A stretch of DNA of 64,000 bases, from positions 1,798,001 to 1,862,000 of the forward strand of contig NZ_JAGIOB010000001.1 of assembly GCF_017876495.1 (NCBI RefSeq), given 5' to 3'. This document shows, piece by piece, positions 15,807 through 32,100 of the stretch (the first letter of the stretch is position 1; each line of letters begins with the position of its first letter). The position numbers and the translations under genes were made by a program. This DNA comes from Microlunatus capsulatus. Lineage in GTDB: Bacteria > Actinomycetota > Actinomycetes > Propionibacteriales > Propionibacteriaceae. A model generated the notes under the pieces. The model saw only the letters and a program-made list of their open reading frames with translations. It was not told the DNA's origin and made no database searches.

Positions 15807-18800
15807 TCAGCCCCGACGGCGCCGGACCGACAGGGTGGTCACCCCGCCGACCACGGCGAGCCAGCCGAGGACGAGGACCCAGAGCACCGGGCCACCGGTC
15901 CGCGGCAGCAGCGGGACCGGTGCCGGCTGCGCGGGCTGGGCCGGCTGACCGGGCTGGGCCGGCTGACCGGGCTCGGCCGGCTGACCGGGCTCGGCCGGCT
16001 GGTCGGGACCCGGTCCGGGCGCCGGCTCGACCTCGAGCGTGGCGTCGGCGACGCCGTTGCCCGGGGTCGGGTCGACCGTGCCGGGTCCGGCGGACACCGC
16101 GACCGCGTTGGTCACGTCACCGGCCGCGGTGACCCGCGCGACGAGCCGGAGCTCGGCACTCGCCCCCGCGGGCAGGTCCCCGACCGTCCACCGCCGCAGC
16201 GCGGCGTCGTAGCCGCCGGTGGCCGTCTCCGCGCCCACGAGGACCAGCCCGGCGGGCCAGCGCTCCTCGACGACGACCGCGTCGGCGTCGGACGGGCCGT
16301 CGTTGCGCACGGTGACCCGGTAGGCGACCTCGTCGCCGACGTCGACCCGGCCGGCGTCGACCACGGCCTTGGTCACGGCGAGGTCGGCGACCCGGCCCAG
16401 CGGCACCGGCGGCGTCGTGGCCGTGGTGTCGTCGAGGTCGGGGTCGGCCGAGGTCGTGGTCACCGTGGCCGTGTTGGACAGCGTCCCGGTGGCGGAGGCG
16501 TCCACGGTGCCGGCGAGCACCAGCACCACGTCCTCCCCGACCGGCAGGTCGCCGACGGCGCAGCGCACCGTCCGGTCGACGGCGGTGCAGCCCTGCGGCA
16601 GCGTCGCCGCGTCCGGCACGGCCGGCAGGGTGTCGGTGACCACCACGCCGCGGGCGGTCGAGGGACCGGCGTTGGTCGCCGTCAGCGTCCACTGCGCCCG
16701 CTCCCCGGCGACCGGGGCGGTGGTGTCGAGCACCTTGGTCAGCGACACGTCGGCCGCCCCGGCCAGCGGCGTCGTCACCTCGTCGGTGTTGTCCGTCCCG
16801 TCCGGGTCGGTGCTCGCCGACGAGCTCACGGTGGCGCTGTTGGTGACCTCCGCGCCCTCGACGTCGGCGCCGAAGCGGCCGCTGACCTCGACGACGGCGC
16901 TGCCGCCGTCCCGCAGCAGCGGCACGGTGCAGGTGGCGACGCCCGCGTCGACGACGCAGGCCTCCGCGGGCCCGCCGCGCAGGGTGGCGGTGGCGTCGAG
17001 CAGGTCGGCCGGCAGCCGGTCGACCACGGTGACGGCCCGGGCGGCGGAGGGTCCGGCGTTGCGGGCCGTCAGCGTCCAGCGCGCCTGGCCACCGGGCACG
17101 AAGGCCCGGGCGTCGGTCTCCTTGGTGACCGACAGGTCGGCCAGGGCGGCGGCGTCGCCGTCCGCGGTGCCCTGGTTGTCCTCCGGGTCGGGGTCGGGGT
17201 CCCCGCCCAGCACCGTCGCGGTGTTGCTGAAGGTGTCGGCGTCCACGTCGTCGGCGACGGCGACGGCGACCGGCACGGTGATGACCACCGGGTCGTCGCC
17301 GGTGAGGCCGAGCTCGCCGAGCTCGCAGCGCACCTGCTGCTCGACCACGGCGCAGTCGGCGCCGGTGACGGCGCCCGCGGTCATCCCGGCGGGCAGGTCG
17401 TCGGTGACCACGACGTCCCGGGCCGTCGAGGGCCCGGCGTTGCGGACGGTCAGGGTGAAGGTCGCGTCCTCCCCGGCCACCACGGCGTCGACGGTCTTGG
17501 TCACCGACACGTCGGCCGAGCGCGTGACCGCGCTGGACACCGGGTCGCTGGTGCCGTTCCCGGGCACCGGGTCGGCCGTCGCGGAGCGGACGCTCGCGCT
17601 GTTGACCAGCGCGGCGCCCCGGTAGCCCGGGTCGACGACGCCGGTGACGACGACCTCCGCCGAGCCCCCGTCGGGCACGTCGCCGAGGGCGCAGCGGACG
17701 ACCTGGTCGGCCACCGAGCAGCCGGTCCCGGTCGCCCGGAGGCTGCCGACCCCGGCGGGCACGGCGTCGGTGAGCACCACGTCGCGCGCCGTCGAGGGGC
17801 CGTCGTTGGTGACGGCGAGCGCCCAGCGGACCGGCCCGCCGGCCACCAGGTCCTCGGGACCCGTCTTGGTCACGGCGAGGTCGGCGAGGCCCTCCGCGTC
17901 ACCGCGGGCGGTGGCGCTGTTGTCACCTGCGTCGGGGTCCGACGTCGAGGAGGTGACCTCGGCGGTGTTGACCAGGGCGTCGGCCTCGAAGCCCGCCGCC
18001 AGCGTGCCGGTCAGCGTGACCTCGGTCGTCGTGCCCGGCAGCAGGGTGCCGAGAGCGCAGCGCACCTCGTCGGTGCCGGTGCAGTCCGCACCCTCGACCT
18101 CGACGTCGGTGACGCCCGCGGGCAGCACGTCGGTGAGCACGACGTCCCGGGCGACGGAGGGGCCGGCGTTGCCGACGGCCACGGTCCAGGCGACGGTGCC
18201 GCCCGGCGTGACGACGGCGGCGCCGGTCTTGGTGACCGACAGGCCGGCCGTGCGGACGACCGGCACGGCGGCGGCGTCCTCGTCGTTCCCCGCCACGGCG
18301 TCGTCGGTGCGGCTGGTGACGGCGGCCCGGAGGGCGACCTCGTCGGCCGTGGCGGCCGCGGGCACCCGGCCGGTCACGGTGAGGACCACCGCGGCGCCGT
18401 CCCCGACGCCCAGCGCGTCGAGGGTGCAGACGCCGTCCTCGCAGACGACCCCGGCGGGGCCGGTGACGACGACGTCGGTGAGCGCGCGGTCGGCGGGCAG
18501 CTCCACCCGGACGCCGCGCGCGGTGGCGGGCCCCCGGTTGAGCACGGTGACGGTCCAGCGGACGTCGGTGCCGGCGACCACGGAGGTGCTGGCGGCCGCC
18601 ACGTCGACGGCCACGTCGGCCTCGGCGCCCAGCACCGTGGTCACGGCGTCGGTCCGGCCGCCGGTGCCGCCGCCGGGCTCGCCGGTCGGCGAGGACACCT
18701 GCGCGGTGTTGGTGAGGTCGCCGGTCGGCGCCCCCGGGTCGAGCGGCTGCGCGGTGACCAGGTCGACGGTGACCCGCCCGCCGTCGGCGAGGGTGCCGAC

Positions 18801-21800
18801 GGCGCAGCGGAGCTCGCCGCCGTCCTGGGTGCAGACGCCCTGGCTGGCGGTCGCGGTGACCGCGCCCGCACCGGGCGGCAGGAGGTCGGTCAGCACGACG
18901 CCCTGGGCGTCGGAGGGACCGGCGTTGGTGAGCACGAGCCGCCACGCGAGCGGCGTGCCCGCGCTGGCCCGCGCCGGACCCGTCTTGGTCAGCGTCAGGT
19001 CGGCCTGGCCGGCGACCGGCACCGCGAGGGCCGCGGTGTTGTCGTCGGGGGCGGCCTCGGGCGTCGCCGAGGTGGCGGCGGCGCTGAGGTCCAGCGACGC
19101 GACGGCGAGGCCCGGCGCGACGGCGAGCGGCACGGTGACGGCGACGTCGGTCCCGGGAGCCAGCACCGGCACCGCGCAGACCAGCGTGCGGCCGGTCAGC
19201 GTGCAGTCGGCGCCCGTGACGTCCCCGGCCAGCTCGAGCCCGGCCGGCAGGGTGGTGCTGAGCAGCACCCGGTCGGCGTCCGAGAGCCCGTCGTTGCGCA
19301 CCCCGAGGGTGAGCGTCGCGCCGGTGCCCGGGACCAGGGTCGTGGGCCGCAGGTCCAGCGTGGTCACCAGGTCGGCGGCGCGGCCGACGGCGGTGGTCGC
19401 CGTCGCCGTGTCGTCCACCGAGCTGGGGTCGGCCGTCGGGCTGGTGACCGTGGCGGTCGCGTCCAGCTCGGCGGCGGTGGAGGCCGGGTCGAGGGTGCCG
19501 GTCACGACGACCACCACCACCTCGCCGGGGGCGAGGTCGCCGAGCCGGCAGTCCACCGCGGTGCTGCAGCGGTCGTCGTCGACGCGCACGCCGCGCACCC
19601 CGGCGGGCAGCTGGAGGGCCAGGTCGACGTCGCGGGCGGTCGAGGGGCCGCCGTTGCGCACCGTCAGCGTCCAGCGGAGCGGGCCGCCGGCGGTGGCGGT
19701 CGCCGGGGCGTCCAGGGCGACGGCCAGCGCGGCCGACTCCCCCACGGTCGCGTCGGCCGAGCCGGTGTCGTTCCCGGGGTCCGGGTCGGCGGTGCCGGCG
19801 GTGACCCGCGCGGTGTTGGTCAGCAGCTCGTCGAAGGTCTGGGCCACGACGCCGGCGACGGCGACCCGGGCGACCGCGCCGTCGGCGAGGGTGCCGAGGT
19901 CGCAGCGCACGCCCTGCCCGACGACGGTGCAGGAGCCGGCCGCCGAGGTGGCCGTCACCGCCCGCACCTGGCTGGGCACGGCGTCGGTGAGCACGACGTC
20001 GGTCGCGTCGGAGGGCCCGTCGTTGGTGACGACCACCTCGAAGGTGATCGGCGACCCGGCGACCGGCCGGCCGGAGGTGAGCGCCTTGCCCACGCGGAGG
20101 TCGGCGGAGGTGCCGACCGCGGCGTCGCTGGTGGCGCTGCCGCCGCCGGGCACCGGGTCCGGGGTGCTGGTCGTCACCGTCGCGGTGTTGCGCAGCCCGG
20201 CGCCGGCGTAGGCCGGGTCGAGGGTGCCGCTGAGCCGCACCTGGACCGTCCCGCCGGGGGCCAGCTGGTCGCGCGTGCACCGCAGGGTGCCGTCGACCAG
20301 GGCGCACTCGGCGTCACCGGAGGTGACGACCGGGTCGAGCACGCCGGCCGGCAGCACGTCGGCCAGCACCACGTCGCGCGCCGTCGAGGGGCCCGGGTTG
20401 GTGACCGCGAGCGACCAGGTGACGGTCCGGCCCGCGACGACGGGTCCCTCGACGACCTTGGTGAGGGCGAGGTCGGCGGCCCGGGAGACGGCGGTCCCCG
20501 CGGTGGCGGTGAGGTCGGCGTCGTCCGGGTCGGGCGTCGTCGAGCCGGCGCTGGCACGGACGGGCAGGTCGGTCGCCAGCGAGGCCGGGTCGAGCCGGCC
20601 GCTGACCGTGACCACGCGCTGCTCGCCGGCGGGCAGCACGCCCAGGGCGCAGCGGACGCCCTCGGCGGTGACCGGGCAGGCCGCGCCGCCGTCGACGACG
20701 GCGGTCAGGCCCAGCAGGCCGGGCGGCAGGTCCAGGCCGGCGGTGGCGCCGGCGGCGTCGCTCGGCCCGTCGTTGCGGACGGTGACGGTCCAGGTCGCGA
20801 CCTCACCCGCACGCACCGCGGCCGGGGCGTCGAGCGCCACGGAGAGGTCCGCGCTGCGGCCGACCGGGGTGCTCAGCCGGCTGTCGTTGTCGGCCGGCGT
20901 CCGCTCGTCGGTGGTCGAGGTGGCGACGGCCCGGTTGACCAGGTCCGCCGGGCCGGAGCCCGCGGCCGTCCGGCCGGTCAGGGTGAGCACGGCGCTCGCC
21001 CCGGCGGCCAGCGTGCCGACGTCGCAGGTCACGGTCCCGCCGACGACGCGGCAGTCCCGGCCGTCGAGAGCGGCCGCGGTGACGTCCACCCCGGCGGGCA
21101 CGGTGTCGGTGAGCACGACCTCGCGGGCCTGGGAGGGCCCGTCGTTGCGGACGGTGACGGTCCAGGTGACAGGCGCCCCGGCGACCGCCGGGGTGGGGGT
21201 CGCCTGCTGCTCGACGACGAGGTCGGCCGCGCCCTGCAGCGGGGTGCTGACCTGAGCGCTGTTGTCGGCGGGCGCCGGGTCCAGCGAGGCCGCGGAGCCC
21301 ACGGCGGCCGAGTTGGTCAGCACGGTGTCGAGGGTGCCGGCGTCGACCCGGCCGGTGACGCTGGCGACGACGGTCTGGCCGGCGCGGACCTGGTCCAGCG
21401 TGCAGACCAGGGGGCGCGCGTCGAGCGGGGCGCAGCTGCCGCCCGGCACGCTGGCCGCGGTGAGCTGCACCGAGGCCGGCAGGGCGTCGGTGAGGCTGAC
21501 GGCCCGGGCGGCCGAGGGGCCGGCGTTGCTGAGCGCCAGCCGCCACGTGACGAGCTCGCCCGGGACGGCGGTCGTCCGGTCGGCGGTCTTGGTCAGCGCG
21601 AGGTCGGCCCGGCTGGCCGCCTCCCCGGCCACGACGTCGCTGTTGTCCCCGGGCTCGGGGTCGGTGACGTCGGACTGGACGGAGGCGGTGTTGGCGAAGC
21701 CGTCGGGGTCGACGTCGTCGGCCACGGCGACCGGGATCTCCACCACGACCGGCGTGCTGCCGGTCGGGGCGAGGTCGCCCAGGTCGCAGGTCACCCGCTG

Positions 21801-24800
21801 GCCCGCCACCGTGCAGGTGCCGGTGGTGCTGGTGACGGCGCCGACGGCCATCCCGGCCGGGACGACGTCGGTGACGACGGTGCCCCGGGCCCGCGAGGGG
21901 CCGGCGTTGGCCACGGCCAGCCGGAAGGTGGCCGGGGAGCCCGCCTCCAGCGGGTCGGGCGTGACCGTCTTGGTCAGCGACAGGTCGGCGGCGGTGCCCA
22001 CCTCGGTGCGCGCCGCGGCGCGGTCGTCGGTGGGGTCCTCGTCGAGCGCGGCCGAGCTGACGGTCGCGACGTTGCTCAGCGCGCCGGCCGGGGTGCCGTC
22101 GGCGACGACGCCGGTGACCAGCACGGTGACGGCGTCGCCCGGGTCGAGGGCGGTCACGTCGCAGCGCACGCCGGCGCCCTCGACGGTGCAGCGCACACCG
22201 CCCTCGGCCGAGCCGGCCGCGATGTCGGCCACGCCCTCGGGCACGGAGTCGACGACGACGACGTCGCGGGCCTGGGACGGCCCGTCGTTGGTGACCTCGA
22301 TCTCCCAGGCCACGGCCTCGCCGGCGCTGACCCGGGCGGGCCCGGTCTTGGTGAGGCCGAGGTCGGCGGTGGGCCGGACGGCCGAGACCGCGGTCGCCGC
22401 GTTGTCGGCGCTGTCCGGGTCCGGCGTGGTGGAGGCGACCTGCGCGGTGTAGCGCAGCTCGGGCACGGCCACGTCGGGGGCGAGCCGGCCGGTGACGACC
22501 ACGACGACCGCCTCCTCGTCGCCGACGCCGAGGGTGCCGAGCGCGCAGGTCGGGGTGGCCCCGACGGAGCAGGTGGCGCCGTTCGAGGCGGTCAGGGTGA
22601 CGCCGGAGAGCCCGGCGGGCAGCAGCTCGGTGAGGGCGACGCCGCGGGCCAGCGAGGGGCCGCGGTTGGTGACCGTGACGGTCCACCGGACGTCCTGGCC
22701 GGGCACCGCGGTGGCCGGGCCGACGACGGTGACGCCCACCCCGCCGGCCTGCTGGACGGCGACGGGCGCGCTGGAGCGGTTGTCGCCCGGGTCGGGGTCG
22801 GCCGTGCTCGAGGTGACGGTGGCGGTGTCGACGACGGCGTCGTCGGTGGAGCCGGCGGGCACGGTGCCGCGCACGGTGAACACGAGGGCCTGGTCGGCGC
22901 CGGGCAGCAGCTCGCCGATGGTGCAGGTGCCGTCGGCGCAGGTCACCCCGGCCGGCGGGACCAGCGTGGAGCCCTGCAGGCCGGCGGGTGCCGGGTTGGT
23001 CAGGACGACGTCGCGGGCCGTCGAGGGCCCGGTGTTGCTGACGGTGACGGTCCACGCGGCGGGGCCGCCGGCCACGGTGCTGGCCGCGACCGGCACCGTG
23101 CTGACGGCGACGTCGGCCTGCTGGGTGACCAGCGTCGTCGACGCGGCCGTCCGGCCGTCCGGCGTCGTCTCGTCCCCGCCGCCGTCGGTGTCGGCGGTCG
23201 GGGAGGTGGCGCGGGCGGTCGCGGTGACCGGACCGGCCGGGTAGCGGGGGTCCAGCACGCCGCTGGTGCCCACGGTGATGACCACGGTCTGGCCGGCGGC
23301 CACCACCCCGAGGGTGCACGTCACCGTGCGGCCGGACTGGCTGCAGCTGCCCTGGGTGCTGGCGAGGCTGACGTCCCCGGTGCCCGCCGGCAGGGTCTGG
23401 GTGACCACGGTGCTCTGGGCGTCGGAGGGCCCGTCGTTGGACAGCTCCACGGTCCAGGCCAGCGGGGTGCCGGCCACGACCTCGGCCGGCGCGGTGCTGC
23501 GCAGGGTGAGGTCGGCGCGGCCGACCACCGGCACGGTGACGACGTCGGCGTTGCTCGCCGGGTCGGGGTCGGGCGTGGCGCTGGTGGCGGAGGCGCCGTC
23601 GGCGACGGAGGTGCCGGTGAAGGAGGCGCCGACGCTGACCGGGAGGGTGAGCACCAGGGATGCGCCCGGGGCGAGCTCGTCGACCTCGCAGCTGACCGTG
23701 CGACCGGTGGTGGTGCAGGTGCCGACGTCGGAGGTGGCGTCGCCGCGCAGCACGAGGCCCTCGGGCAGGGTGTCGGCCAGCGTCACCAGGCGGGCCGTCG
23801 ACGGCCCGTCGTTGCGGACGGTCACGGTGAGCACGGCGTCGCGGCCGGGGACCAGCTGCGGGGTGCTGCTCCGGGTGCTGACGACGAGGTCGGCGGCCCG
23901 GGTGATGGTGGTGACGACGCGGCTCGTGTTGTCGGTGGTGTCGAGGTCCGGCGTGCTCGCGCTGACGACGGCGGTGCTGCTCAGGCTGGTCCGGGTGCTG
24001 TCGGGCGGCACGAGGCCGCTGGCCACGATGGTGACGCTGTCCCCCGGCCCGAGGTCGCCGAGGGGGCACCGGCCGTCGGGCCGGCAGCGGTCGCCCGCGG
24101 ACTCCTCGACCACGTCGACGACGCCGACGGGCAGCAGCCCGAGCAGCTGGACGCCCCGGGCCTGGGAGGGCCCGTCGTTGCGGACGGTGACGCGGAAGGT
24201 GGCCCGCTCCCCGGCCCGGACGGTCGCGGGCCCGGTCAGCAGGGCCGAGACCTCTGCGATCTCCTCGACGGTGCCGGAGATCCGGGCGGTGTTGTCCGCC
24301 AGGTCCGGGTCGGGCGTCGCACTGCCCACGACGGCCACGCTGCTCAGGTCACCGCTGAAGGCCGACGACAGGACGCCGCTGAGCTCGATGCGGGCCTCCG
24401 CCCCCGGCGCCAGCTCCGCGACCCGGCAGGTCAGCTCGCGGCCGTCGAGGGTGCAGACGCTGGTCGTGCTGAGGGCGCTCGCGTTCAGGATCTCGGCGGG
24501 CACGGTCTCGGTGACCACGACGTCGCGCGCCACCGAGGGTCCGGCGTTGCGCACCACGAGGGTGCTGCTGATCTCCTGGCCCGCCACCGGCTTGCCGGAG
24601 CCGATCAGCTGGCTGATCGAGAGGTTGGCGCTCTGCCCCACCGGGGTGCTCGAGGTCGCCTCGTTGCCGCTCAGGTCGGGGTCCGGGGTGCCGGCGCGGA
24701 CGGCGACGGCGTTGACCAGCTCGGTCAGCTGGCTGGCGGGGTCGAGCGTCCCGTTCACGGTGACCCGGACCGGGGTGCCGGGGGCGACGTCGGACAGCTC

Positions 24801-27800
24801 GCAGGTGAGGACCCGGCCGTTCAGCCGGCAGACGGCGCCGCCGGCGTCGACGGAGGTGAGGGTCACGCCCGCGGGCAGCGTGTCGGTGAGGACGACCTGA
24901 CGGCCCACGGAGGGGCCGGCGTCGCGGACGGTCAGCGTCCAGCTCACCGGGCCGCCGGCGGTGACGGAGGCCGCACCCGGGGTGCTGGTGACGGTGAGGT
25001 CGGCCGAGCGGGTGACGGTGGTCTCGAAGACCGAGCGCAGGTCGTCGCTGTCGGGGTCGGGGGTGTCGGAGGCGACGGTGACGTCGTTGGTCAGCGTGGT
25101 CGCGGTGCTGGCCGGGTCGACCTGGCCGGTCACCACGATCACCCGGGAGCCGCCGGCGGGCACGACCCCGAGCGGGCAGAGCAGCTGCTGGCCGGTCAGG
25201 GTGCAGGTGCCGCCGTCGGAGGTGCCGGTCAGGCCCAGCAGCTCGGCCGGCAGGTCGTCGACGACGACGAGGCCGGTGCCGTCGGAGGGCCCGGCGTTGC
25301 TCACGGTCACCGTCCAGCGGGCGGTGCCGCCGGCGGCCACCTGCGGCGTCCCCGTCTGGGCGACCGACAGGTCGGCCGACCGGCTGACCGCCGTGGTCAC
25401 GGTCGCGGCGTTGTCCAGGGTGTCGGGGTCGGCGACGGCCGAGCTCACCCGGGCGGTGGCCAGCAGCGAGGTGCCGGCGTAGCCCGGGTTGACGCGCGCG
25501 ACGACGGTCAGCGTGCGGCTGGCCCCCGCGGCCAGCGCGTCGACGGTGCAGGTGGAGGTCGTCGTCCCGGTGCAGCGTCCCGGCCCGTCGAGCGTCGCGG
25601 AGACCGGGGTGACGCCGTCGGGCAGGTCGGCGACCAGCCGCAGGTCACGGGCGTCGGAGGGTCCGTCGTCGCTCACCCGGAAGGTCCAGGTGACCTGCTG
25701 GCCCGCGACGACCGAGGCGGGACCGCTGCCCGTCAGCGCGAGGTCGGCCGAGGCGACGGCCGGGGTGGTGACGGCGGTGGTGTTGTCGTCCGCGTCGGGG
25801 TCGGCGGTGGTCGAGGTGACCGAGGCCTCGTTGGTGAGCTCGGTGACGGCCGAGCCGGCGGCCAGCGTGCCGCTGACCGTCACGGTCACGGTGGCGCCGA
25901 CGGCCACGTCGCCGAGGGCGCAGGTGACGGCGTCCGCGGTGACGGGGCAGGTGCCCTGGCCGGTCTGGGCGCTGGTGAAGGTGACGTCGGCCGGGGCGGC
26001 GTCGCGGACGCGCACGTCGCGGGCGACCGAGGGCCCGTCGTTGTGCACGCTGACCTGCCAGCGCACCTCCTGGCCCGGGGTCGGGGCGCCGGAGAGCAGG
26101 CTCTTGCGCACCGACAGGTCCGCCCGGGCGCCGACGGTGCTGCTCACCGTGGCGGTCGCCGGCGTCGGGTCGGTGGCCGAGGCGCTGGCCGTGGCCGTGT
26201 TGACCACCGGCTGGTCGACGGGCTGGTCGACGGGCACGTCGAGGGTCAGGGTGACGACGGCGGAGTCGCCGACGTCGAGGGTGGCCCAGCGGCAGGTGAC
26301 CTGGTCGTCGTCGGCCGGGGTCTGGGCCAGGGCGTCGTAGACGCAGCCCCCGCCGCCGGTCGCGCCGGCGCGGGCGAAGGTCAGACCGGGCGGCAGCACG
26401 TCGGTGAGGATGACGTCGCGCGCCTGGGAGGGCCCGGCGTTGGTGAGCACCATCCGGTAGGTGACGGGCTGGCCGGCGACGACCTCGTCGCTGGTCACCT
26501 GCTTGGTGAGCCGCAGGTCGTTCTGAGCGCTGACGGGCTGCTCGACGCTGGCCCGGTCGTCGCCCGGCGTCGGGTCGGGGGTGTCGGAGGCCACCCGGAC
26601 CGTGTTGCGGACGAGCTGGCCGGCCGCGGTCGGCGACAGCCGCGCGGTGAGCTGGACCACGACGACGGCGCCCGGCTCGAGCGCGCCCAGGCCGCAGGTG
26701 ACCTCCGGGCCGTCGGCGGCGCAGGTGCCGGCCGGGTTGACGGCGGAGACGAAGGTGAGGCCGTCGGGCAGGCTGTCGACGACGCGGGCGGCGCGCGCCA
26801 GCGACGGGCCGGTGTTGGTCACGGTGACGAGGTAGGTCTCCTGGTCACCGGCCACCGGGGAGCTGCTGCGCGCGCTCTTGGTGACGGCGAGGTCGGCGCT
26901 GGTGACGACCGAGGTCGTCACCTCCGCCGACCGGGTGGCGGGGTCCTGGTCGCCGGTCGGCGAGCTCAGCGCACCGCGGGCGGTCAGCCGGCTGCCGTCG
27001 GCCAGGGCGGCCGAGACCTGCGTGTCGACGGTGACGGTGGCGGCGGCGCCGGGGGCGAGGTCGCCCAGGGTGCAGCGGACCCGGTTGAGGTCGGCGTCGA
27101 CGGTGCACGTGACACCGGCGGGGGCGGAGATACCGCCGTCGGCGACCCGCACCCCGGCCGGCAGCACCTCGTCGAGGACGACGGCGGTGGCCAGCGAGGG
27201 CCCGACGTTGACCGCGCCGAAGGTGTAGCGCAGCGTCGAGCCGGCGGTGACGGGGTCGGGGGCGGCCGCGGCGCTGAGCCGCAGGTCGGCCGACTGCACC
27301 ACCGGGGTGGTCGTGGCGGCCGTGTCGTTGGCGCGGACCGGGTCGGTCACCGCCGATCCGACGGTGACGCTGCTGGTCCGGGAGCCGGTGGCGTCGGCGG
27401 CGACCGCGACGGCGACCCGGGCGGTCAGCACGCCGCCCGGGGCGAGCCGGTCGACGGTGCAGGTGACCGTCTGCCCGTCCACGGTGCAGGTGCCGGTGCT
27501 GGGCGCGGCCGACACGACGGCGAGGCCGGCGGGCAGCGTGCTGGTGAGGGTGACGCGGGAGGCGTCGGCCGGGCCGGCGTTCGTGGCGGCGAAGGTGTAG
27601 GTGGCCGTGCCCCCGGCGACGAGGGCGTCGACGGAGACGCTGCTGCTGGCCCGCACGTCGGCCTCGGCCACGACGACGAGGTCGGCGACCGAGGCGTTGT
27701 TGGCGGCGTTCGGGTCCGCGGTCGTCGAGCCGATCGACGCGGTCCCCGCGATGGTGCCGGCCGGCGTGCTGGGCAGCACCCGGGCGCGGAAGGTCAGGGC

Positions 27801-30800
27801 GTTGCTGCTGTCGACGGGCAGCGTGCCGACGGCGCAGGTGACGGTCCGGCCGGTCACCGTGCAGGCGCCTCCGCTGGAGCCCGGGACGGCCTCGAGCCCG
27901 TCGGGCACCTGGCCGGTGACGATGACGCTGCGCGCCGTCGAGGGCCCGGCGTTGGTGACGGTCACCCGGTAGGTGGCCTCCTCCCCCGCGCGGACGGTCG
28001 GGGTGGTGGCGACCATGGCCACGCCGACGTCGGCGGAGCGGGCGGTCTCGGTCGTGGAGGTGGCGCTGTTGTTGGAGGTCGTCGGGTCCGTCGGGGTGGC
28101 GGCGCTCACCGACGCGGTGTTGGACGTGCTCCGGTCGACGAGGTCGGCCGAGACGCGGCCCACGACGGTGATGGCGACCGAGGCGTTCCCGGCCAGCGCC
28201 CCCACGGTGCAGGTGACGTCCTGGCCATCGACGGAGCAGGTGCGGCCGCCGGCGAAGGAGGAGGTCCGGTAGGTGACGCCGGTGGGCAGCCGGTCGGTGA
28301 CCACGACGCCGGTCGCCGCGGAGGGCCCGGCGTTGCTGGCGGTCAGGGTGTAGGTGACGTCGCGGCCCGGGACGACCGGGGACGGGCTCGTCGTCTTGGC
28401 CAGCGCCAGGTCGGCGCTGGAGGCGGTGGAGCTGACGAAGGTGGCGGTGTTGTTGGCCGCCGCCGGGTCGGTGGTCTCCGCCGCGGCGGTGGCGGTGTTG
28501 CTGAGGCCGCCCGCGGGCGCGGTCTGCGGGGTGCTCACGGTCACCGTCCGGGTGGCGCCGGCGCCGACCTCCAGGGTGCCGACGGGGCAGGTGACGGTCC
28601 GGCCCGCGGTGGTGCAGCCGGCGGGGGTGCCGACGACGGCGGTGCCCTCGGGCAGGGGGTCGGTGATGACGACCGCCCGCGCCTGGGAGGGACCGGCGTT
28701 GGTCGTGGTGAGGGTGTAGGTCAGCTCGTTGCCCAGCTGGACCGGGTTCGGCGCCGCGGACTTGGTCAGCGAGACGTCGGCCCGGGTCACGACGGTGACG
28801 TCGGTGCTGGCCGCGTCGTTCGTGGTGACGGTCTGCGCGGTCGTCGTGGTCGCCCGGGCGGTGTTGGTGACGGTGCCCGGGTCACGGGCGGCGTCGACCC
28901 GGACCAGCAGGGTCACCCGGGCGCTGGAGCCCGGCGTGATCGTCCCCAGCTCGCAGGCCACCGGCGACGTGGTGGTGCAGGTGCCCTGGGTCGGGGTGAC
29001 CTGCAGCAGGGTGAGGCCGGCCGGGACGGCGTCGGCCAGGGTCACCCCGCGCGCGTCCGTGGCCCCGGTGTTGGCCACGGTGACGCTGTAGGTCAGGGTG
29101 CCGCCGGCGGTGACCGTGGTCGGGTTGGCGGTCTGGCTGACGACCAGGTCGGCGTCCTGCCGGACGGTGGTCGTCGCGGTGGCGCTGTTGTTGGCCGGGG
29201 TCGGGTCGGCCGTGGCCGAGGTGACCGAGGCGGTGTTGTCGACCGAGGTGCCGGTGAAGGACGCGGCGACGGTGGCCCGGACCGTGACGGTCGCGCTGGC
29301 CGAGGGCGCCAGCGTCCCGACGGCGCAGACGACGGTCTGGCCGTTGGCCGAGCAGCTGCCCTGGCTCGGGTCGGTGCTGACCAGGGTGGTGCCCAGCGGC
29401 AGGGTGTCGGTGATGCTCGTCGAGGCGGCCGACGACGGGCCGGCGTTGAGCGCGGTGAGGGTGTACGTCACCTGGTTGCCGGCGGCGACCGAGGCGGTGC
29501 CGGTCTTCGTCAGCCGCAGGTCGGCCGCCCGGGTGAGGACCGTGCTCGCGGTCGCGGTGTTGTTCGTCGGGACGTCGTCGGTGGTCGCCGCGGTCACGCT
29601 CGCCGTGTTGACCACGGTGCCGGCCGCGGTGGTGGCGCCCACGTCGGCGGTCACCGGGATGGTGACCGTCGCGCCGTTGGCCAGGCTGGCCGTGGTGCAG
29701 GTGACCGTCTGCCCGCTGGCGGAGCAGGTGGTGCCCGCCGGCGCGGCGGCCGAGGCGTAGCTGAGGCCGGCCGGGAGCGTGTCGGTGGTGACGACGCCCG
29801 TGGCGGTGTTCGGGCCGTTGTTCGTGACCCCCAGCCGGTAGGTCACCGACGAGCCGGCGGTCTGGCTGGTCGGCACCGAGGTCTTGGTGAGCGCCAGGTC
29901 GGCGATCTCCTGCACCGGGGTGCTGACGGTGTTGGTGGTGAACGTGTAGTTGTTGCCCAGCGTCACCGCGCGGTAGTCCAGCAGGCCGCCGTTGGTCACG
30001 GTGGTGCCGGCCGCCGCGCGGTCGACGCGGACCCGGAAGGTGACCGCGGTGGCCGCGTTCACCGCGACGCTGCCGCCCGCGGTGGCGCTGGCTCCCGCGC
30101 CCAGCCGCGCGCGGACCAGCCGGTCGGCGGCGACGTACTCCGCCACGTCGTCCCCGGCCGCATCGGTCTTCGGCGTCGTGGAGGCGTTCGGCCCGCTGAC
30201 GACCGTCGTGCTCTCCGGCACGTAGGTCACCCCGGCGGGCAGCGGGTCGCGCAGGACGACGTCGGCCGCGGTGTCCTGGCCCGAGTTGGTGAAGCTCAGC
30301 CGGTACTCCAGGGTGTCCCCCACCTGGGCGGGGTTGTTGCCGCTGAGGTTGGTGACGGTCTTGCTGACGCCGGCGAACGAGGGCGTGTAGAGGTCGATCT
30401 CGGTGGTCAGCAGGCCCAGGTAGATGTAGTCACCGGTGGTGCTGACGCTGACCGTGGCCGAGGTGGCGCCGTTGGCCAGCACGCCGTTGGCGTTCACCCG
30501 GCCCATGTCGACGCCGAAGTTGTTGGTGGCGCCCGGGTTGCGGCCGCCGGTGCTGGCGCCGAAGTTCGAGATGGCCGAGTCGAAGGAGTTGTTGGCCGGC
30601 CGCGCGGCGTCGGCCAGCGTCGTGCCGCCGAACTTCAGCACGTCACCGGTCGTGCCCAGGTCGCCCTCCCAGGCGGCCAGGCCGACGGTCGCGTTGACGG
30701 TGCCGGCGGTGGGGGTGATGAAGCCGGAGACGCTGGTGGAGACGGTGGAGTTCGCGGCACTCTCGGTGGTGATGTCGGCGAAGCCCTCGAAGACCGTGAG

Positions 30801-31508
30801 GTCGCGGATCGGCAGGTTCGGGTTGGAGTAGGCGACCGCGAGGGTCCAGCCGGCGTAGCGGTCCGAGCCCGTCGCGCCCACCATGTCGGCGAAGAAGTAG
30901 GTGCCGTTGCCGGCGGCGCGCACGGTGCCGGTGACGTCCAGCGAGGCCTGGTAGGGCGTCGTGTCGATCGTGGTGGTGGTGACCGTCGTCGCGGTGACGT
31001 TGCTGTAGGCGGCCTGCCCGGGCGCGCGGAACTTCGCGTTGGCCAGGGTGCCGGTGCCGGCGAGGCCGTTGGTGCCGGCCACCAGCCGGGCGCTCCAGAG
31101 CAGCCGCGCGTAGAGCACGGTCGAGCCGGCGGGCAGCGCGAGGTCGGCGCTGGTCGAGTTCGTGGTGGTGGCGACGTCGTCGACGTCGGAGAACGCCATC
31201 ACGTAGTTGTTGTTGTTGACGTTGGTGCCCGAGCCGCTGCGGGCGGCGGCGCAGCCGGTCGCGGCGGTCTGGCAGGTCATCTGCGTGTTGCCGACGATGG
31301 AGATCGCGCCGTTGTTCTGGGTGCTGAAGACCTTGGCGAACGGCTTCTGCAGCGCCGCCTCGGCGGTGACCGGGGGCAGCACGGCGGTGGCCAGCACCAG
31401 CAGGGCGAGGGCCAGGCTCAGGGTCCAGGCGGTCGTCACCCGCCAGGGCGCCGGGGCGAACCAGCGGGCGGAACGGGACGACCGGCGCGACTTGGCGCGT
31501 GGGGGCAT
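15807..31508 (-). CDS. Giant LPXTG-anchored cell-wall protein with 38 tandem DUF11-type domains
   Basis: The single frame encodes 5,233 residues. A Sec signal peptide (basic start, hydrophobic core, AEA-like cleavage near residue 50) is followed by a beta-rich Asn/Thr/Gly-rich region of about 320 residues containing GWTLAVAYSNPNLP and LTVFEGFAD. Then come 38 DUF11-like domains of about 125 residues, each built as ADLxLTK...VTNAGPSxARxVVLTDxLPAG...C-x8-C...LGTLAPG...NTAxVTSxTxDPDPxDN. The tail is a Gln/Pro/Ala/Glu stalk, then LPRTG (residues 5201-5205), a hydrophobic stretch and RRRRG, a classical sortase signal. Nearly every domain has one close Cys pair, suggesting one disulphide per domain. 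The likely role is a long surface fibre or adhesin. The ATG at 31506-31508 has a weak GAGG site, and no sortase gene is in the window. Confidence 0.95.
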   Translation of the reverse strand: MPPRAKSRRSSRSARWFAPAPWRVTTAWTLSLALALLVLATAVLPPVTAEAALQKPFAKVFSTQNNGAISIVGNTQMTCQTAATGCAAARSGSGTNVNNNNYVMAFSDVDDVATTTNSTSADLALPAGSTVLYARLLWSARLVAGTNGLAGTGTLANAKFRAPGQAAYSNVTATTVTTTTIDTTPYQASLDVTGTVRAAGNGTYFFADMVGATGSDRYAGWTLAVAYSNPNLPIRDLTVFEGFADITTESAANSTVSTSVSGFITPTAGTVNATVGLAAWEGDLGTTGDVLKFGGTTLADAARPANNSFDSAISNFGASTGGRNPGATNNFGVDMGRVNANGVLANGATSATVSVSTTGDYIYLGLLTTEIDLYTPSFAGVSKTVTNLSGNNPAQVGDTLEYRLSFTNSGQDTAADVVLRDPLPAGVTYVPESTTVVSGPNASTTPKTDAAGDDVAEYVAADRLVRARLGAGASATAGGSVAVNAATAVTFRVRVDRAAAGTTVTNGGLLDYRAVTLGNNYTFTTNTVSTPVQEIADLALTKTSVPTSQTAGSSVTYRLGVTNNGPNTATGVVTTDTLPAGLSYASAAAPAGTTCSASGQTVTCTTASLANGATVTIPVTADVGATTAAGTVVNTASVTAATTDDVPTNNTATASTVLTRAADLRLTKTGTASVAAGNQVTYTLTALNAGPSSAASTSITDTLPLGTTLVSTDPSQGSCSANGQTVVCAVGTLAPSASATVTVRATVAASFTGTSVDNTASVTSATADPTPANNSATATTTVRQDADLVVSQTANPTTVTAGGTLTYSVTVANTGATDARGVTLADAVPAGLTLLQVTPTQGTCTTTSPVACELGTITPGSSARVTLLVRVDAARDPGTVTNTARATTTTAQTVTTNDAASTDVTVVTRADVSLTKSAAPNPVQLGNELTYTLTTTNAGPSQARAVVITDPLPEGTAVVGTPAGCTTAGRTVTCPVGTLEVGAGATRTVTVSTPQTAPAGGLSNTATAAAETTDPAAANNTATFVSSTASSADLALAKTTSPSPVVPGRDVTYTLTASNAGPSAATGVVVTDRLPTGVTYRTSSFAGGRTCSVDGQDVTCTVGALAGNASVAITVVGRVSADLVDRSTSNTASVSAATPTDPTTSNNSATSTTETARSADVGVAMVATTPTVRAGEEATYRVTVTNAGPSTARSVIVTGQVPDGLEAVPGSSGGACTVTGRTVTCAVGTLPVDSSNALTFRARVLPSTPAGTIAGTASIGSTTADPNAANNASVADLVVVAEADVRASSSVSVDALVAGGTATYTFAATNAGPADASRVTLTSTLPAGLAVVSAAPSTGTCTVDGQTVTCTVDRLAPGGVLTARVAVAVAADATGSRTSSVTVGSAVTDPVRANDTAATTTPVVQSADLRLSAAAAPDPVTAGSTLRYTFGAVNVGPSLATAVVLDEVLPAGVRVADGGISAPAGVTCTVDADLNRVRCTLGDLAPGAAATVTVDTQVSAALADGSRLTARGALSSPTGDQDPATRSAEVTTSVVTSADLAVTKSARSSSPVAGDQETYLVTVTNTGPSLARAARVVDSLPDGLTFVSAVNPAGTCAADGPEVTCGLGALEPGAVVVVQLTARLSPTAAGQLVRNTVRVASDTPDPTPGDDRASVEQPVSAQNDLRLTKQVTSDEVVAGQPVTYRMVLTNAGPSQARDVILTDVLPPGLTFARAGATGGGGCVYDALAQTPADDDQVTCRWATLDVGDSAVVTLTLDVPVDQPVDQPVVNTATASASATDPTPATATVSSTVGARADLSVRKSLLSGAPTPGQEVRWQVSVHNDGPSVARDVRVRDAAPADVTFTSAQTGQGTCPVTADAVTCALGDVAVGATVTVTVSGTLAAGSAVTELTNEASVTSTTADPDADDNTTAVTTPAVASADLALTGSGPASVVAGQQVTWTFRVSDDGPSDARDLRLVADLPDGVTPVSATLDGPGRCTGTTTSTCTVDALAAGASRTLTVVARVNPGYAGTSLLATARVSSAVADPDTLDNAATVTTAVSRSADLSVAQTGTPQVAAGGTARWTVTVSNAGPSDGTGLVVVDDLPAELLGLTGTSDGGTCTLTGQQLLCPLGVVPAGGSRVIVVTGQVDPASTATTLTNDVTVASDTPDPDSDDLRSVFETTVTRSADLTVTSTPGAASVTAGGPVSWTLTVRDAGPSVGRQVVLTDTLPAGVTLTSVDAGGAVCRLNGRVLTCELSDVAPGTPVRVTVNGTLDPASQLTELVNAVAVRAGTPDPDLSGNEATSSTPVGQSANLSISQLIGSGKPVAGQEISSTLVVRNAGPSVARDVVVTETVPAEILNASALSTTSVCTLDGRELTCRVAELAPGAEARIELSGVLSSAFSGDLSSVAVVGSATPDPDLADNTARISGTVEEIAEVSALLTGPATVRAGERATFRVTVRNDGPSQARGVQLLGLLPVGVVDVVEESAGDRCRPDGRCPLGDLGPGDSVTIVASGLVPPDSTRTSLSSTAVVSASTPDLDTTDNTSRVVTTITRAADLVVSTRSSTPQLVPGRDAVLTVTVRNDGPSTARLVTLADTLPEGLVLRGDATSDVGTCTTTGRTVSCEVDELAPGASLVLTLPVSVGASFTGTSVADGASATSATPDPDPASNADVVTVPVVGRADLTLRSTAPAEVVAGTPLAWTVELSNDGPSDAQSTVVTQTLPAGTGDVSLASTQGSCSQSGRTVTCTLGVVAAGQTVVITVGTSGVLDPRYPAGPVTATARATSPTADTDGGGDETTPDGRTAASTTLVTQQADVAVSTVPVAASTVAGGPAAWTVTVSNTGPSTARDVVLTNPAPAGLQGSTLVPPAGVTCADGTCTIGELLPGADQALVFTVRGTVPAGSTDDAVVDTATVTSSTADPDPGDNRSSAPVAVQQAGGVGVTVVGPATAVPGQDVRWTVTVTNRGPSLARGVALTELLPAGLSGVTLTASNGATCSVGATPTCALGTLGVGDEEAVVVVVTGRLAPDVAVPELRYTAQVASTTPDPDSADNAATAVSAVRPTADLGLTKTGPARVSAGEAVAWEIEVTNDGPSQARDVVVVDSVPEGVADIAAGSAEGGVRCTVEGAGVRCDVTALDPGDAVTVLVTGVVADGTPAGALSNVATVSSAALDEDPTDDRAAARTEVGTAADLSLTKTVTPDPLEAGSPATFRLAVANAGPSRARGTVVTDVVPAGMAVGAVTSTTGTCTVAGQRVTCDLGDLAPTGSTPVVVEIPVAVADDVDPDGFANTASVQSDVTDPEPGDNSDVVAGEAASRADLALTKTADRTTAVPGELVTWRLALSNAGPSAARAVSLTDALPASVQLTAASVPGGSCAPLDARPLVCTLDQVRAGQTVVASVTGRVDAGTLDTVLTNSAAVGSAASLDPAPADNSAQVSTPLQGAADLVVEQQATPTPAVAGAPVTWTVTVRNDGPSQAREVVLTDTVPAGVDVTAAALDGRDCRVVGGTVTCDVGTLAAGASAVLTLTGRTAAGSGPADLVNRAVATSTTDERTPADNDSRLSTPVGRSADLSVALDAPAAVRAGEVATWTVTVRNDGPSDAAGATAGLDLPPGLLGLTAVVDGGAACPVTAEGVRCALGVLPAGEQRVVTVSGRLDPASLATDLPVRASAGSTTPDPDDADLTATAGTAVSRAADLALTKVVEGPVVAGRTVTWSLAVTNPGPSTARDVVLADVLPAGVLDPVVTSGDAECALVDGTLRCTRDQLAPGGTVQVRLSGTLDPAYAGAGLRNTATVTTSTPDPVPGGGSATSDAAVGTSADLRVGKALTSGRPVAGSPITFEVVVTNDGPSDATDVVLTDAVPSQVRAVTATSAAGSCTVVGQGVRCDLGTLADGAVARVAVAGVVAQTFDELLTNTARVTAGTADPDPGNDTGSADATVGESAALAVALDAPATATAGGPLRWTLTVRNGGPSTARDVDLALQLPAGVRGVRVDDDRCSTAVDCRLGDLAPGEVVVVVVTGTLDPASTAAELDATATVTSPTADPSSVDDTATATTAVGRAADLVTTLDLRPTTLVPGTGATLTLGVRNDGLSDADRVLLSTTLPAGLELAGDVTGADCTLTGRTLVCAVPVLAPGTDVAVTVPLAVAPGLAVASLDLSAAATSATPEAAPDDNTAALAVPVAGQADLTLTKTGPARASAGTPLAWRLVLTNAGPSDAQGVVLTDLLPPGAGAVTATASQGVCTQDGGELRCAVGTLADGGRVTVDLVTAQPLDPGAPTGDLTNTAQVSSPTGEPGGGTGGRTDAVTTVLGAEADVAVDVAAASTSVVAGTDVRWTVTVLNRGPATARGVRVELPADRALTDVVVTGPAGVVCEDGVCTLDALGVGDGAAVVLTVTGRVPAAATADEVALRAAVTSRTDDAVAGNDEDAAAVPVVRTAGLSVTKTGAAVVTPGGTVAWTVAVGNAGPSVARDVVLTDVLPAGVTDVEVEGADCTGTDEVRCALGTLLPGTTTEVTLTGTLAAGFEADALVNTAEVTSSTSDPDAGDNSATARGDAEGLADLAVTKTGPEDLVAGGPVRWALAVTNDGPSTARDVVLTDAVPAGVGSLRATGTGCSVADQVVRCALGDVPDGGSAEVVVTGVVDPGYRGAALVNSASVRSATADPVPGNGTSDPVSSAVTRSADVSVTKTVDAVVAGEDATFTLTVRNAGPSTARDVVVTDDLPAGMTAGAVTGADCAVVEQQVRCELGELGLTGDDPVVITVPVAVAVADDVDADTFSNTATVLGGDPDPDPEDNQGTADGDAAALADLSVTKETDARAFVPGGQARWTLTARNAGPSAARAVTVVDRLPADLLDATATLRGGPAEACVVDAGVATCTVPLLRDGGSAVVEVSGRFGADVEGAEVTNSATVSSSASTDPDGTDNTDEVTTPLAGAADVSLTKVLDTTAPVAGERAQWTLTATNAGPSTARGVVVTDTLPAVPDAATLPQGCTAVDRTVRCAVGDLPVGEDVVLVLAGTVDASATGTLSNTATVTTTSADPDLDDTTATTPPVPLGRVADLAVTKAVVDAGRVDVGDEVAYRVTVRNDGPSDADAVVVEERWPAGLVLVGAETATGGYDAALRRWTVGDLPAGASAELRLVARVTAAGDVTNAVAVSAGPGTVDPTPGNGVADATLEVEPAPGPGPDQPAEPGQPAEPGQPAQPGQPAQPAQPAPVPLLPRTGGPVLWVLVLGWLAVVGGVTTLSVRRRRG
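15894..15908 (-). other. LPRTG sortase recognition motif
   Basis: The five codons of LPRTG are followed by about 20 hydrophobic residues and a terminal RRRRG, the standard cell-wall sorting signal cleaved between Thr and Gly. Confidence 0.9.
15912..16025 (-). repeat. Short tandem repeat encoding the Gln-Pro-Ala stalk
   Basis: An imperfect unit of about 18 bases (core GGCCGGCTGACCGGGCT) is repeated. It encodes QPAEPG/QPAQPG units just before the sorting signal and would act as a wall-spanning spacer. Confidence 0.8.
16398..20861 (-). repeat. Third 12-domain super-repeat (DUF11 domains 26-37)
   Basis: It encodes 1,488 residues, from GRSADLSVALDAP to just before GRVADLAVTK. Domain-specific oddities recur in the same order as in the block at 20862-25385, for example the short DRC...C domain, the AGTPLAW domain with a Gly-rich end, and the IPVAVADDVD-type domain. 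Confidence 0.8.
20862..25385 (-). repeat. Second 12-domain super-repeat (DUF11 domains 14-25)
   Basis: It encodes 1,508 residues, from SRSADLSVAQTG to just before GRSADLSVALD. Each of its twelve domains has a recognisable partner twelve domains later. Confidence 0.8.
25386..29912 (-). repeat. First 12-domain super-repeat (DUF11 domains 2-13)
   Basis: It encodes 1,509 residues, from QEIADLALTK to just before SRSADLSVAQ. Its length is within one residue of the second block. Correspondence with the second block is weaker but visible in domains 6/18 (VPGRD), 8/20/32 (ADV start), 10/22 (VVDSxPxG and DDRA), 12/24/36 (VxTPx end) and 13/25 (LDG before Cys). Confidence 0.65.
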
Positions 31509-31556
31509 GCGACGTCAACCTCGGGGGTCACGCCCTCCCCCGACCGGGCAGGCGAA

Positions 31557-31562
31557 ATCCTA
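31557..31562 (-). promoter_or_regulatory. Possible -10 box for the giant surface-protein gene
   Basis: TAGGAT on the minus strand lies about 48 bases before the ATG. No clear -35 box is seen. Confidence 0.35.
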
Positions 31563-31661
31563 GCCACAGACTGGGACGAGCGCCACTGTAAACGGATCAC
31601 GGGCGCCCGCGCCAGCCCTTCCGACGTGCTCGCGGACCCGCAGGACCGGCCCACCGCCGGG

Positions 31662-31678
31662 CGCGGATTATGTCCGCG
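31662..31678 (-). terminator. Small hairpin after the 69-residue gene
   Basis: CGCGGA-TTATG-TCCGCG lies just downstream of the stop at 31693. It is short, so it is a weak call. The rest of the 31509-31692 gap holds only the presumed promoter of the giant gene. Confidence 0.35.
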
Positions 31679-31692
31679 TCCGGCCTAATCGG

Positions 31693-31902
31693 TCAGCGGA
31701 CGGCGTGCGCCCGCGGGTGCCGCCGGCCGGCCCACCACGAGCGGTGGCCGCGCTCGGGGCGCCGGGCCGCCCGGGAGGCGGCGTAGCGGCGCAGCGCCGA
31801 CGGCGGGGCCACCTGGGCCGCCAGCCGGTCCATCGCGGCGATGTCCTGCAGCTCGGTGATCCGCGCGCGGTGCTCCCAGCCGTAGCTGTAGTCGTCGGTC
31901 AT
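31693..31902 (-). CDS. Small basic protein of unknown function
   Basis: The protein has 69 residues from the ATG at 31900-31902 with a strong AGGAGGA ribosome-binding site eight bases upstream. This favours it over the longer 104-residue frame, whose N-terminus lies upstream of that site. It begins TDDYSYGWEHRARITELQDI, continues with an Ala-rich helix and ends in an Arg/His-rich basic tail. There is no signal peptide and no known motif. It lies upstream of the giant surface-protein gene on the same strand and divergent from the LAL regulator. Confidence 0.6.
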   Translation of the reverse strand: MTDDYSYGWEHRARITELQDIAAMDRLAAQVAPPSALRRYAASRAARRPERGHRSWWAGRRHPRAHAVR

Positions 31903-32100
31903 CTCGGTCCTCCTGGTCCGCGGGCCGGGTGGCCCGCGCTTGAGGACCAACCTCGTCCTGAGGTGCCCGGCCCGGCATCGGGTGACCGGCGTATCCCGGG
32001 GTGCCACCGGTGGCCCCCGCGGTCTGAGGTACCTAGACCGGCGGCCCGGTCGTCGCGGACCCCCCCGCCGCTGTCAGCGCCCTCTGCCACGATGGCGACC

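Follow-up and report, generated by a model that had tools for sequence, protein, structure and literature searches.

DUF11 is a stalk domain of the fibrillar adhesin-like proteins in the parts of PMC9210967 covered here, where the definition of periscope proteins includes highly identical stalk repeats. Bacterial stalks of variable length are often said to consist of tandem domains that are highly identical. The parts covered of PMC10619420 report a giant Mobiluncus mulieris adhesin with 51 immunoglobulin-like (Ig-like) domains, an LPxTG motif and disulfides; those of PMC10665226 describe titin A-band super-repeats, in which positional counterparts in successive blocks are alike and for which mid-chain duplication was proposed; and those of PMC1553488 state that domain repeats often expand by several domains at once, often in the middle. 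Here we report a computational analysis of a 64,000-nucleotide stretch of Microlunatus capsulatus DNA (contig NZ_JAGIOB010000001.1, positions 1,798,001 to 1,862,000; hereafter the window), in which one gene encodes a giant surface protein with 38 DUF11-type domains.

We propose, with a probability of roughly 0.78, that this protein is a sortase-anchored fibrillar adhesin-like stalk with an old array of domains at the tip and a growth zone on the wall side, which grew from about 26 to 38 domains through a single copying of a 12-domain unit.

Results

A 12-domain block copied within the stalk

The window genome is coded G000 and its relatives G001, G006, G017 and so on. Cutting the giant open reading frame (ORF) at AD[L/V]-type starts gives 38 domains. 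The Pfam model of DUF11 (PF01345) has 43 matches genome-wide, of which 38 lie inside the giant ORF, all above the family cut-off, which bears out the predicted 38 domains in a single ORF of 5233 amino acids (aa). The gene and its stalk are laid out as follows.

15807..31508, minus strand: giant surface protein gene, ORF of 5233 aa with ATG start
29904..30377, minus strand: domain 1 (aa 378-535), a long, odd DUF11 domain adjoining the head, matched by the first domain of relatives
25749..29903, minus strand: domains 2-12 (aa 536-1920), probably an older ladder without block copies, from register tests and the order in relatives
21228..25748, minus strand: copy A of the 12-domain unit, domains 13-24 (aa 1921-3427), from blastp against copy B
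20853-25376, minus strand: frame of copy A in the original prediction, domains 14-25
16755..21227, minus strand: copy B of the 12-domain unit, domains 25-36 (aa 3428-4918), from identity matrix, blastp and tree
16389-20852, minus strand: frame of copy B in the original prediction, domains 26-37
16389..16754, minus strand: domain 37 (aa 4919-5040), possible equivalent of G017 position 25, from short loops shared in the alignment
16017..16388, minus strand: domain 38 (aa 5041-5164), the last domain, without the cysteine (Cys) pair, from the sequence

The original prediction had arranged domains 2-13, 14-25 and 26-37 (here blocks 1, 2 and 3) as a super-repeat of 3 x 12 domains, in which each domain n is closest to domain n+12 in all blocks. 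The block lengths of 1509, 1508 and 1488 residues are exact by domain starts, but the super-repeat is supported for domains 14-24 against 26-36 only; there the recurrence at a period of 12 goes far beyond chance, while domains 2-13 match neither later block in any favoured register.

Between blocks 2 and 3, the n/n+12 pairs of domains 14-25 have a mean identity of 0.449, while all pairings of the two blocks average 0.367 (z 6.1, a value not reached in 100,000 permutations). No offset other than 12 is strongly elevated; offset 12 has z 5.1 by identity and z 6.5 by alignment score, where the next best offset reaches 1.5 and none of 20,000 shuffled domain orders attains z 6.5; the strongest diagonal in the scan of offsets and runs is that of domains 14-24 at offset 12. 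With blastp, aa 1921-3427 and aa 3428-4918 align in register at 44.5% identity over 1506 columns with 805 bits, versus 394 and 386 bits in two other registers, and a profile test with up to six species gives z 7.4 in the block 2/3 register. The tree built from domains 2-38 of two species joins six of the 12 block 2/3 pairs as clades with support 83-100 (14/26, 18/30, 19/31, 20/32, 23/35 and 24/36); it also holds ten further four-sequence clades at other offsets with support 37-92 (best 3/8 with 92, 5/11 with 91 and 12/33 with 86), and the tree alone is therefore noisy. One duplication of a block of about 12 domains and 4.5 kilobases (kb), after its domains had diverged, is well supported.

Among the letter motifs named earlier for these pairs, AGTPLAW with GPSDAQ in domains 19/31, PAGVxCxDGxCT in 20/32, DRC...C in 17/29 and the AG starts of 21/33 are present in the sequence. 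Both LLGLT and DPAS are found in 14/26, but DPAS also occurs in 15 and 29 and is not specific; for the motif IPVAVA(VA)DDVD assigned to 23/35, domain 35 reads VPVAVAVADDVD, not IPVAVA...; and the ADV start assigned to 8/20/32 also occurs in 5, 7, 35 and 37, so that it is not specific either.

The frame 13-24/25-36 is weakly preferred over 14-25/26-37. Position 13 of G017 scores best against window domain 25, then 13, with window domain 37 ranking 22nd, and because of this the unit border may lie one domain earlier than predicted. Position 25 of G017 has shortened loops in common with window domain 37 in the alignment, but their similarity score does not bear this out (rank 9 of 37), and pair 25/37 is not elevated in the identity matrix. 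By identity, the two frames have equal block z-scores (6.32 and 6.23), and placing the border by thirds of domains gave no clear border.

Domains 2-13 as a candidate third copy

The third block, namely domains 2-13 as a further copy, was rejected, as no preferred register was seen in the matrix, the two-species scores or the profiles. In the identity matrix, block 1/2 at offset 12 gives z -0.06 (p 0.53) and block 1/3 gives z -1.2 (p 0.88), so that of the predicted diagonals at offsets 12 and 24 only that of blocks 2/3 at offset 12 appears; the two-species scores are z 0.09 and z -0.29, respectively. The predicted n/n+12 clades, found for half of the block 2/3 pairs, are formed by none of the 12 block 1/2 pairs. 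The n/n+12 pairs are not the closest ones for block 1, whereas they are for blocks 2/3. Nor does blastp prefer a register: two registers score 480 and 465 bits for block 1/2, and two score 387 and 374 bits for block 1/3. Multi-species profiles (at most six species) of domains 2-12, set against the unit, yield z 0.5 when offset by 12, and across offsets 3 to 20 the best value is 1.9. The block-1 motifs VPGRD (6/18) and VVDSxPxG (10/22) are real letters but amount to no more than background. A faint hint comes from window domains 25-34, which track core positions 2-11 of two relatives, G147 (z 2.4) and G001 (z 2.0), within a range of -0.9 to 2.4 over 18 arrays whose values are not independent. 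In comparison with relatives, domains 2-12 appear to be an older, separately inherited array keeping its own positions, and not a third copy.

The DNA-level signal

Of the lines at 4.5 and 9.0 kb predicted for DNA and protein dot plots, those on DNA did not materialise. With DNA words of 11-14 bases the top offset bins lie near 3.0, 3.3 and 7.5 kb (about 3.0 kb on top, about 7.5 kb second or third), and the ten bins listed include none at 4.5 or 9.0 kb; with shared protein 4-mers the offset of 1510 aa comes only fourth, behind 3761, 3506 and 125. Saturation of synonymous sites explains the missing DNA lines: in codons for the same residue (A, G, P, T, V), identity at fourfold third positions is 0.594 for block 2/3 pairs versus 0.584 off the diagonal, and even between orthologues of G000 and G006 the agreement is only 0.61. 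Therefore, the duplication is older than the synonymous memory, and the DNA no longer records the event. In the same orthologues, codon positions 1 and 2 are conserved at 0.84 and 0.85 versus 0.67 at position 3.

Domain order and copy number in relatives

Some DUF11 is carried by 13 of the 20 genus genomes sampled, the window's own included, and the first 603 residues as query (E <= 1e-40) matched G006, G017 and G001 within the genus; a family search with the same residues matched 27 of 197 genomes, again including the window's own. In G006, all 38 domains are one-to-one reciprocal best matches of those of the window at 56-88% identity, offset 12 stands at z 6.5, and six of seven tested neighbouring proteins are found beside its giant gene. 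In a tree of concatenated units, independent duplication in G000 and G006 is rejected (approximately unbiased (AU) test, p 4e-55), and the duplication probably preceded the split of the window's species from G006, its nearest sequenced relative.

The congener G017 carries a single unit, which lies within one contig and precedes the last domain of the array; its gene lies on two contigs of a fragmented assembly, with the break near d9 and a frame change in d12, and the first model match in its upstream piece, G017a, lies in the head and was skipped. When unit positions are scored against the better of the two window copies, the order of window positions 2-24 is followed at shift 0 by G017 (z 17.0), by the Auraticoccus-genus genomes G028 (13.1) and G051 (13.4), and by Actinokineospora (9.5), whose agreement ends near position 20. 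Offset 12 is absent from the five best offsets listed for G028, G051 and Actinokineospora. Two Nocardioides follow window positions 2-12 only (z 5.4 and 4.3; 0.2 beyond). The order of domains 2-12 is kept in G017, Auraticoccus, Actinokineospora, Nocardioides and G037, and the last domains of G017 and Auraticoccus G051 both match domain 38 best (0.52 and 0.48, respectively). In G028 (L112), G051 (L101) and G017 (L038), the giant frame is broken inside the array, giving two overlapping frames, by either sequencing error or a real frame change.

A same-position test without domain 1, whose inclusion inflates the scores, gave z 7.3 for G028, 6.0 for G037, 6.0 for Actinokineospora, 4.4 and 3.1 for the two Nocardioides, 2.7 for G147 and 2.1 for G001. 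Positional identity is firm only in the nearer relatives.

Tip-side and wall-side zones in the sampled arrays

Nearest paralogues were counted in 23 arrays read from domain 1, comprising 16 with more than 13 domains, six with 11-13 and one (G017a) cut by a contig end; the downstream pieces G017b, G028_2 and G051_2 stood outside these counts, and each added locus is represented by its most domain-rich frame alone. An N-terminal query served to find the arrays, and several come from one genus (g21), so that they are not a random sample. In all 23 arrays, the nearest paralogue of domains 1-11 within the own array never reaches 0.60 identity, while from domain 12 onward this level is reached in nine.

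By top offset, the unit measures one domain in Nocardioides and G043, two in Auraticoccus, Actinokineospora and G001, three in G169 and two arrays of G080, seven in G037 (pairs one unit apart 68-84% identical), ten in G130 and G147, and 12 in the window and G006; no offset exceeds z 2 in the short or medium arrays of Leifsonia, Glaciibacter, G094, G030 and G041. The relative G037 (L125) has 40 domains, of which domains 12-32 make up three copies of the seven-domain unit, 64-84% identical; this super-repeat is younger and cleaner than that of the window.

Head, stalk fold and wall anchor

The remaining parts of the protein lie at its two ends.

31356..31508, minus strand: probable signal peptide (aa 1-51), N-terminal Arg-rich and hydrophobic stretch, read by eye
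30378..31361, minus strand: N-terminal head (aa 50-377), all-beta and distantly DUF3344-related, from alignment and AlphaFold2
15810..16016, minus strand: C-terminal Pro/Gly/Gln-rich spacer, LPRTG, hydrophobic stretch and RRRRG tail, from the sequence
15894-15908, minus strand: LPRTG sorting motif, read by eye
15922-16001: 18-bp DNA repeat in the spacer region

The head comprises about 330 residues, for which an alignment of 40 sequences was built from the window's stretch and 39 of 61 stretches listed. The AlphaFold2 model of aa 50-380 has a mean predicted local distance difference test (pLDDT) score of 94.4 and is nearly all-beta. DUF3344 is matched at E <= 1 by 13 of the 40 alignment members (best 1.8e-12), and the window's own head has no DUF3344 (PF11824) match at E <= 1. 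Against the PDB, the head gave weak xylanase, carbohydrate-binding and PNGase F-like matches that, with template modelling (TM) scores to the query of at most 0.25 among the 50 matches listed, are not interpretable. Matches to query residues below 370 place the head in several phyla, mostly in metagenome-assembled genomes, with contigs labelled Myxococcales, Bacteroidetes, Gemmatimonadetes, Eisenbacteria, Acidimicrobiales and others; it is a widespread, little-studied tip domain.

A model of stalk domains 26-27 has pLDDT 97 and nine strands per domain, in keeping with the beta-sandwich repeat stalk of fibrillar adhesin-like proteins, and its nearest solved structures are integrin alpha chains, the closest being integrin alpha-X (4nen), which the parts covered of PMC9210967 likewise give for a DUF11 cluster. 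Two Cys columns per domain are invariant across 78 aligned domain pairs (78 of 116 stretches listed, with window domains 1 and 38 left out); nearly all of the 38 domains carry the Cys pair, which may form disulfides. Domain pairs throughout the protein share about 35% identity, and the highest identity between any two repeats is 57%. At the C-terminus, the LPRTG motif, hydrophobic stretch and RRRRG tail make up a wall anchor as in fibrillar adhesin-like proteins, and sortase has four matches in the G000 genome.

Outside the window, the G000 genome holds a second large DUF11 frame (C1:57671-60760, a 3695-aa open frame with five matches). An open frame of 1881 aa lies antisense to the giant gene at 26043-31688 on the plus strand, as expected in high-GC DNA, with no sign of being a gene. 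Divergent from the giant gene, an AAA_16/LuxR-type regulator lies at 31705-35067 on the plus strand, its longest ORF starting about 200 bp from the start of the giant; among the loci compared and within the flanks searched, it stands beside the giant in G006 only.

Discussion

Based on these results, the protein could be built and could have grown as follows. A secreted all-beta head, which may mediate adhesion, would be carried on 38 DUF11 beta-sandwich domains, of which nearly all have a Cys pair, and this putative stalk would be fixed in the wall through the Pro-rich spacer and the LPRTG signal. Domains 1-12, nearest the head, would form the old array, in which each position keeps its own sequence identity, while the wall-side zone would change by tandem duplication inside the gene, possibly through unequal recombination, with a unit size differing by lineage. 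In the window's lineage, a 12-domain unit (13-24, possibly 14-25) would have been copied once, taking a probable ancestral count of about 26 domains to 38 before the split from the nearest sequenced relative; the copies would then have diverged to about 46% identity with their order retained. The likely outcome is a stalk about half again as long, which would hold the head further from the cell.

Several observations weigh against this reading. The total of 26 domains in G017 is pieced together from a gene split over two contigs with a frame change in d12, and the congener G001 fits the window ladder weakly (z 2.7 at shift 0, 2.9 at shift -4). None of the seven proteins around the window gene has a tblastn match at 1e-8 in the searched flanks of G017, Auraticoccus, G001 and Actinokineospora, and vertical descent is therefore not proven. 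Pair 13/25 is weakly elevated and pair 25/37 not at all, so that the unit border is uncertain, and the PDB matches of the head are poor, as given above. In addition, G130 (L120) and G147 (L122) hold offset-10 copies of domains 2-10 of their own arrays (z 7.9 and 5.0), and therefore the tip-side ladder is not immune to copying. A general two-zone rule, namely a tip ladder of about 11 domains with fixed positions kept across genera and orders, and nearly all growth on the wall side by lineage-set units of 1, 2, 3, 7, 10 or 12 domains, is put forward only tentatively, at somewhat less than even odds; against its strict form, same-position agreement with the window is below z 2 (0.5 to 1.8) in 11 of 18 arrays. 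If the rule is general, tip-side domains would be functional individuals and wall-side domains interchangeable length.

The timing of the copy admits another history, in which the duplication predates the G017 split and G017 later lost one copy. In the concatenated-unit tree, placing G017 outside both copies, with copy A or with copy B could not be told apart (AU p 0.17, 0.83 and 0.25), and in the best unconstrained tree G017 groups with copy A (support 71) and the outgroups stand next to copy B, which makes such a loss possible; the log-likelihood of this tree is 6.5 better than that with G017 outside both copies, a difference that is not significant, and the identity between copies A and B (0.45-0.47) is not above that of either copy to G017 (0.46-0.47). 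This history requires an extra and precise loss of 12 domains, however, and Auraticoccus and Actinokineospora likewise lack an offset-12 copy, so we regard it as a distinct but rather doubtful possibility; parsimony, with the other relatives lacking the copy, favours a gain near the G017 split. The originally predicted history, three blocks of 12 from two successive 4.5-kb duplications with one domain at each end, retains its first duplication, while the second, giving block 1, is unsupported. The equal block lengths, the VPGRD and VVDSxPxG motifs and the weak hints from G147 and G001 speak for it, but any 12 domains of about 125 aa give equal lengths, the block 1/2 and 1/3 z-scores lie near or below 0 with a best profile value of 1.9, there is not one clade among the 12 pairs, and blastp prefers no register for block 1; it is largely refuted and very improbable.

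Two further explanations concern the order of the domains and their likeness. Selection might hold the domain types in place, with successive positions binding different partners as proposed for the titin A-band, so that the duplication would have doubled a 12-site ruler. Positions 2-20 or more do keep their identity between families and orders, at roughly 40-60%, and between G000 and G006 the first two codon positions are better conserved than the third; however, purifying selection on single domains differs from selection on order, the two copies have diverged to about 46%, and descent without reshuffling accounts for the order equally well. The order is inherited in the relatives, and therefore its conservation needs no selection on order; the selection or constraint claimed in the original prediction is not needed, and we consider it unlikely. 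Chance or compositional likeness among Ala/Thr/Val-rich domains is in turn suggested by the identity of about 35% in all domain pairs, which makes motif lists alone weak evidence, and by the ten four-sequence clades at other offsets. Set against it are the shuffled orders, none of which reaches the observed offset score, the six offset-12 clades, and the presence of offset 12 in G006 too; chance is refuted for blocks 2/3, where its probability is negligible, and it stands for block 1.

The proposed stalk with a single 12-domain copy can thus be set beside the known systems, each as far as the parts of the cited sources covered here describe it. Like the fibrillar adhesin-like proteins of PMC9210967, the window protein has repeated stalk domains including DUF11, an N-terminus distal to the anchor and a C-terminal anchor; as to a known adhesive tip domain, its head is DUF3344-related at best, and section 14 of PMC9210967 lists a DUF3344-like N-terminal cluster (no. 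23) with ambiguous function. Unlike those proteins, it carries 38 domains that diverge from one another (about 35% identity) and include a copied block of 12, and the covered parts of PMC9210967 do not discuss the block structure of DUF11 stalks. Among the papers listed in a literature search, with most subscription journals outside its coverage, none deals in its title or the beginning of its abstract with this protein or with a 12-domain block in a bacterial stalk. With the Mobiluncus mulieris adhesin (PMC10619420), it shares the giant, single-chain, LPxTG-anchored actinobacterial stalk of repeat Ig-like domains, although that adhesin has ester and isopeptide cross-link domains, not DUF11.

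As in periscope proteins (PMC9210967), stalk length is set by the number of tandem domains, but highly identical tandem repeats are not found in the window protein, whose best pair reaches 57%, and the change is old and common to two species. Individual domain positions are traceable between species, families and even orders, beside a zone that grows by blocks, and such tracing lets stalk-lengthening events be ordered in time and the jobs of tip-side domains be asked about. As in the titin A-band (PMC10665226), there are repeats of repeats, with same-position domains resembling each other across blocks, although titin has many super-repeats tied to the thick filament, whereas the window protein has two copies and no known template. 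The mode resembles that of PMC1553488, in that a multi-domain unit was duplicated inside the array and the end domains were left alone, and differs from the cases there in being bacterial, in its unit of 12 domains and in having relatives without the copy at hand. The window protein illustrates well the way in which giant stalk proteins grow and does not represent a system of a new kind.

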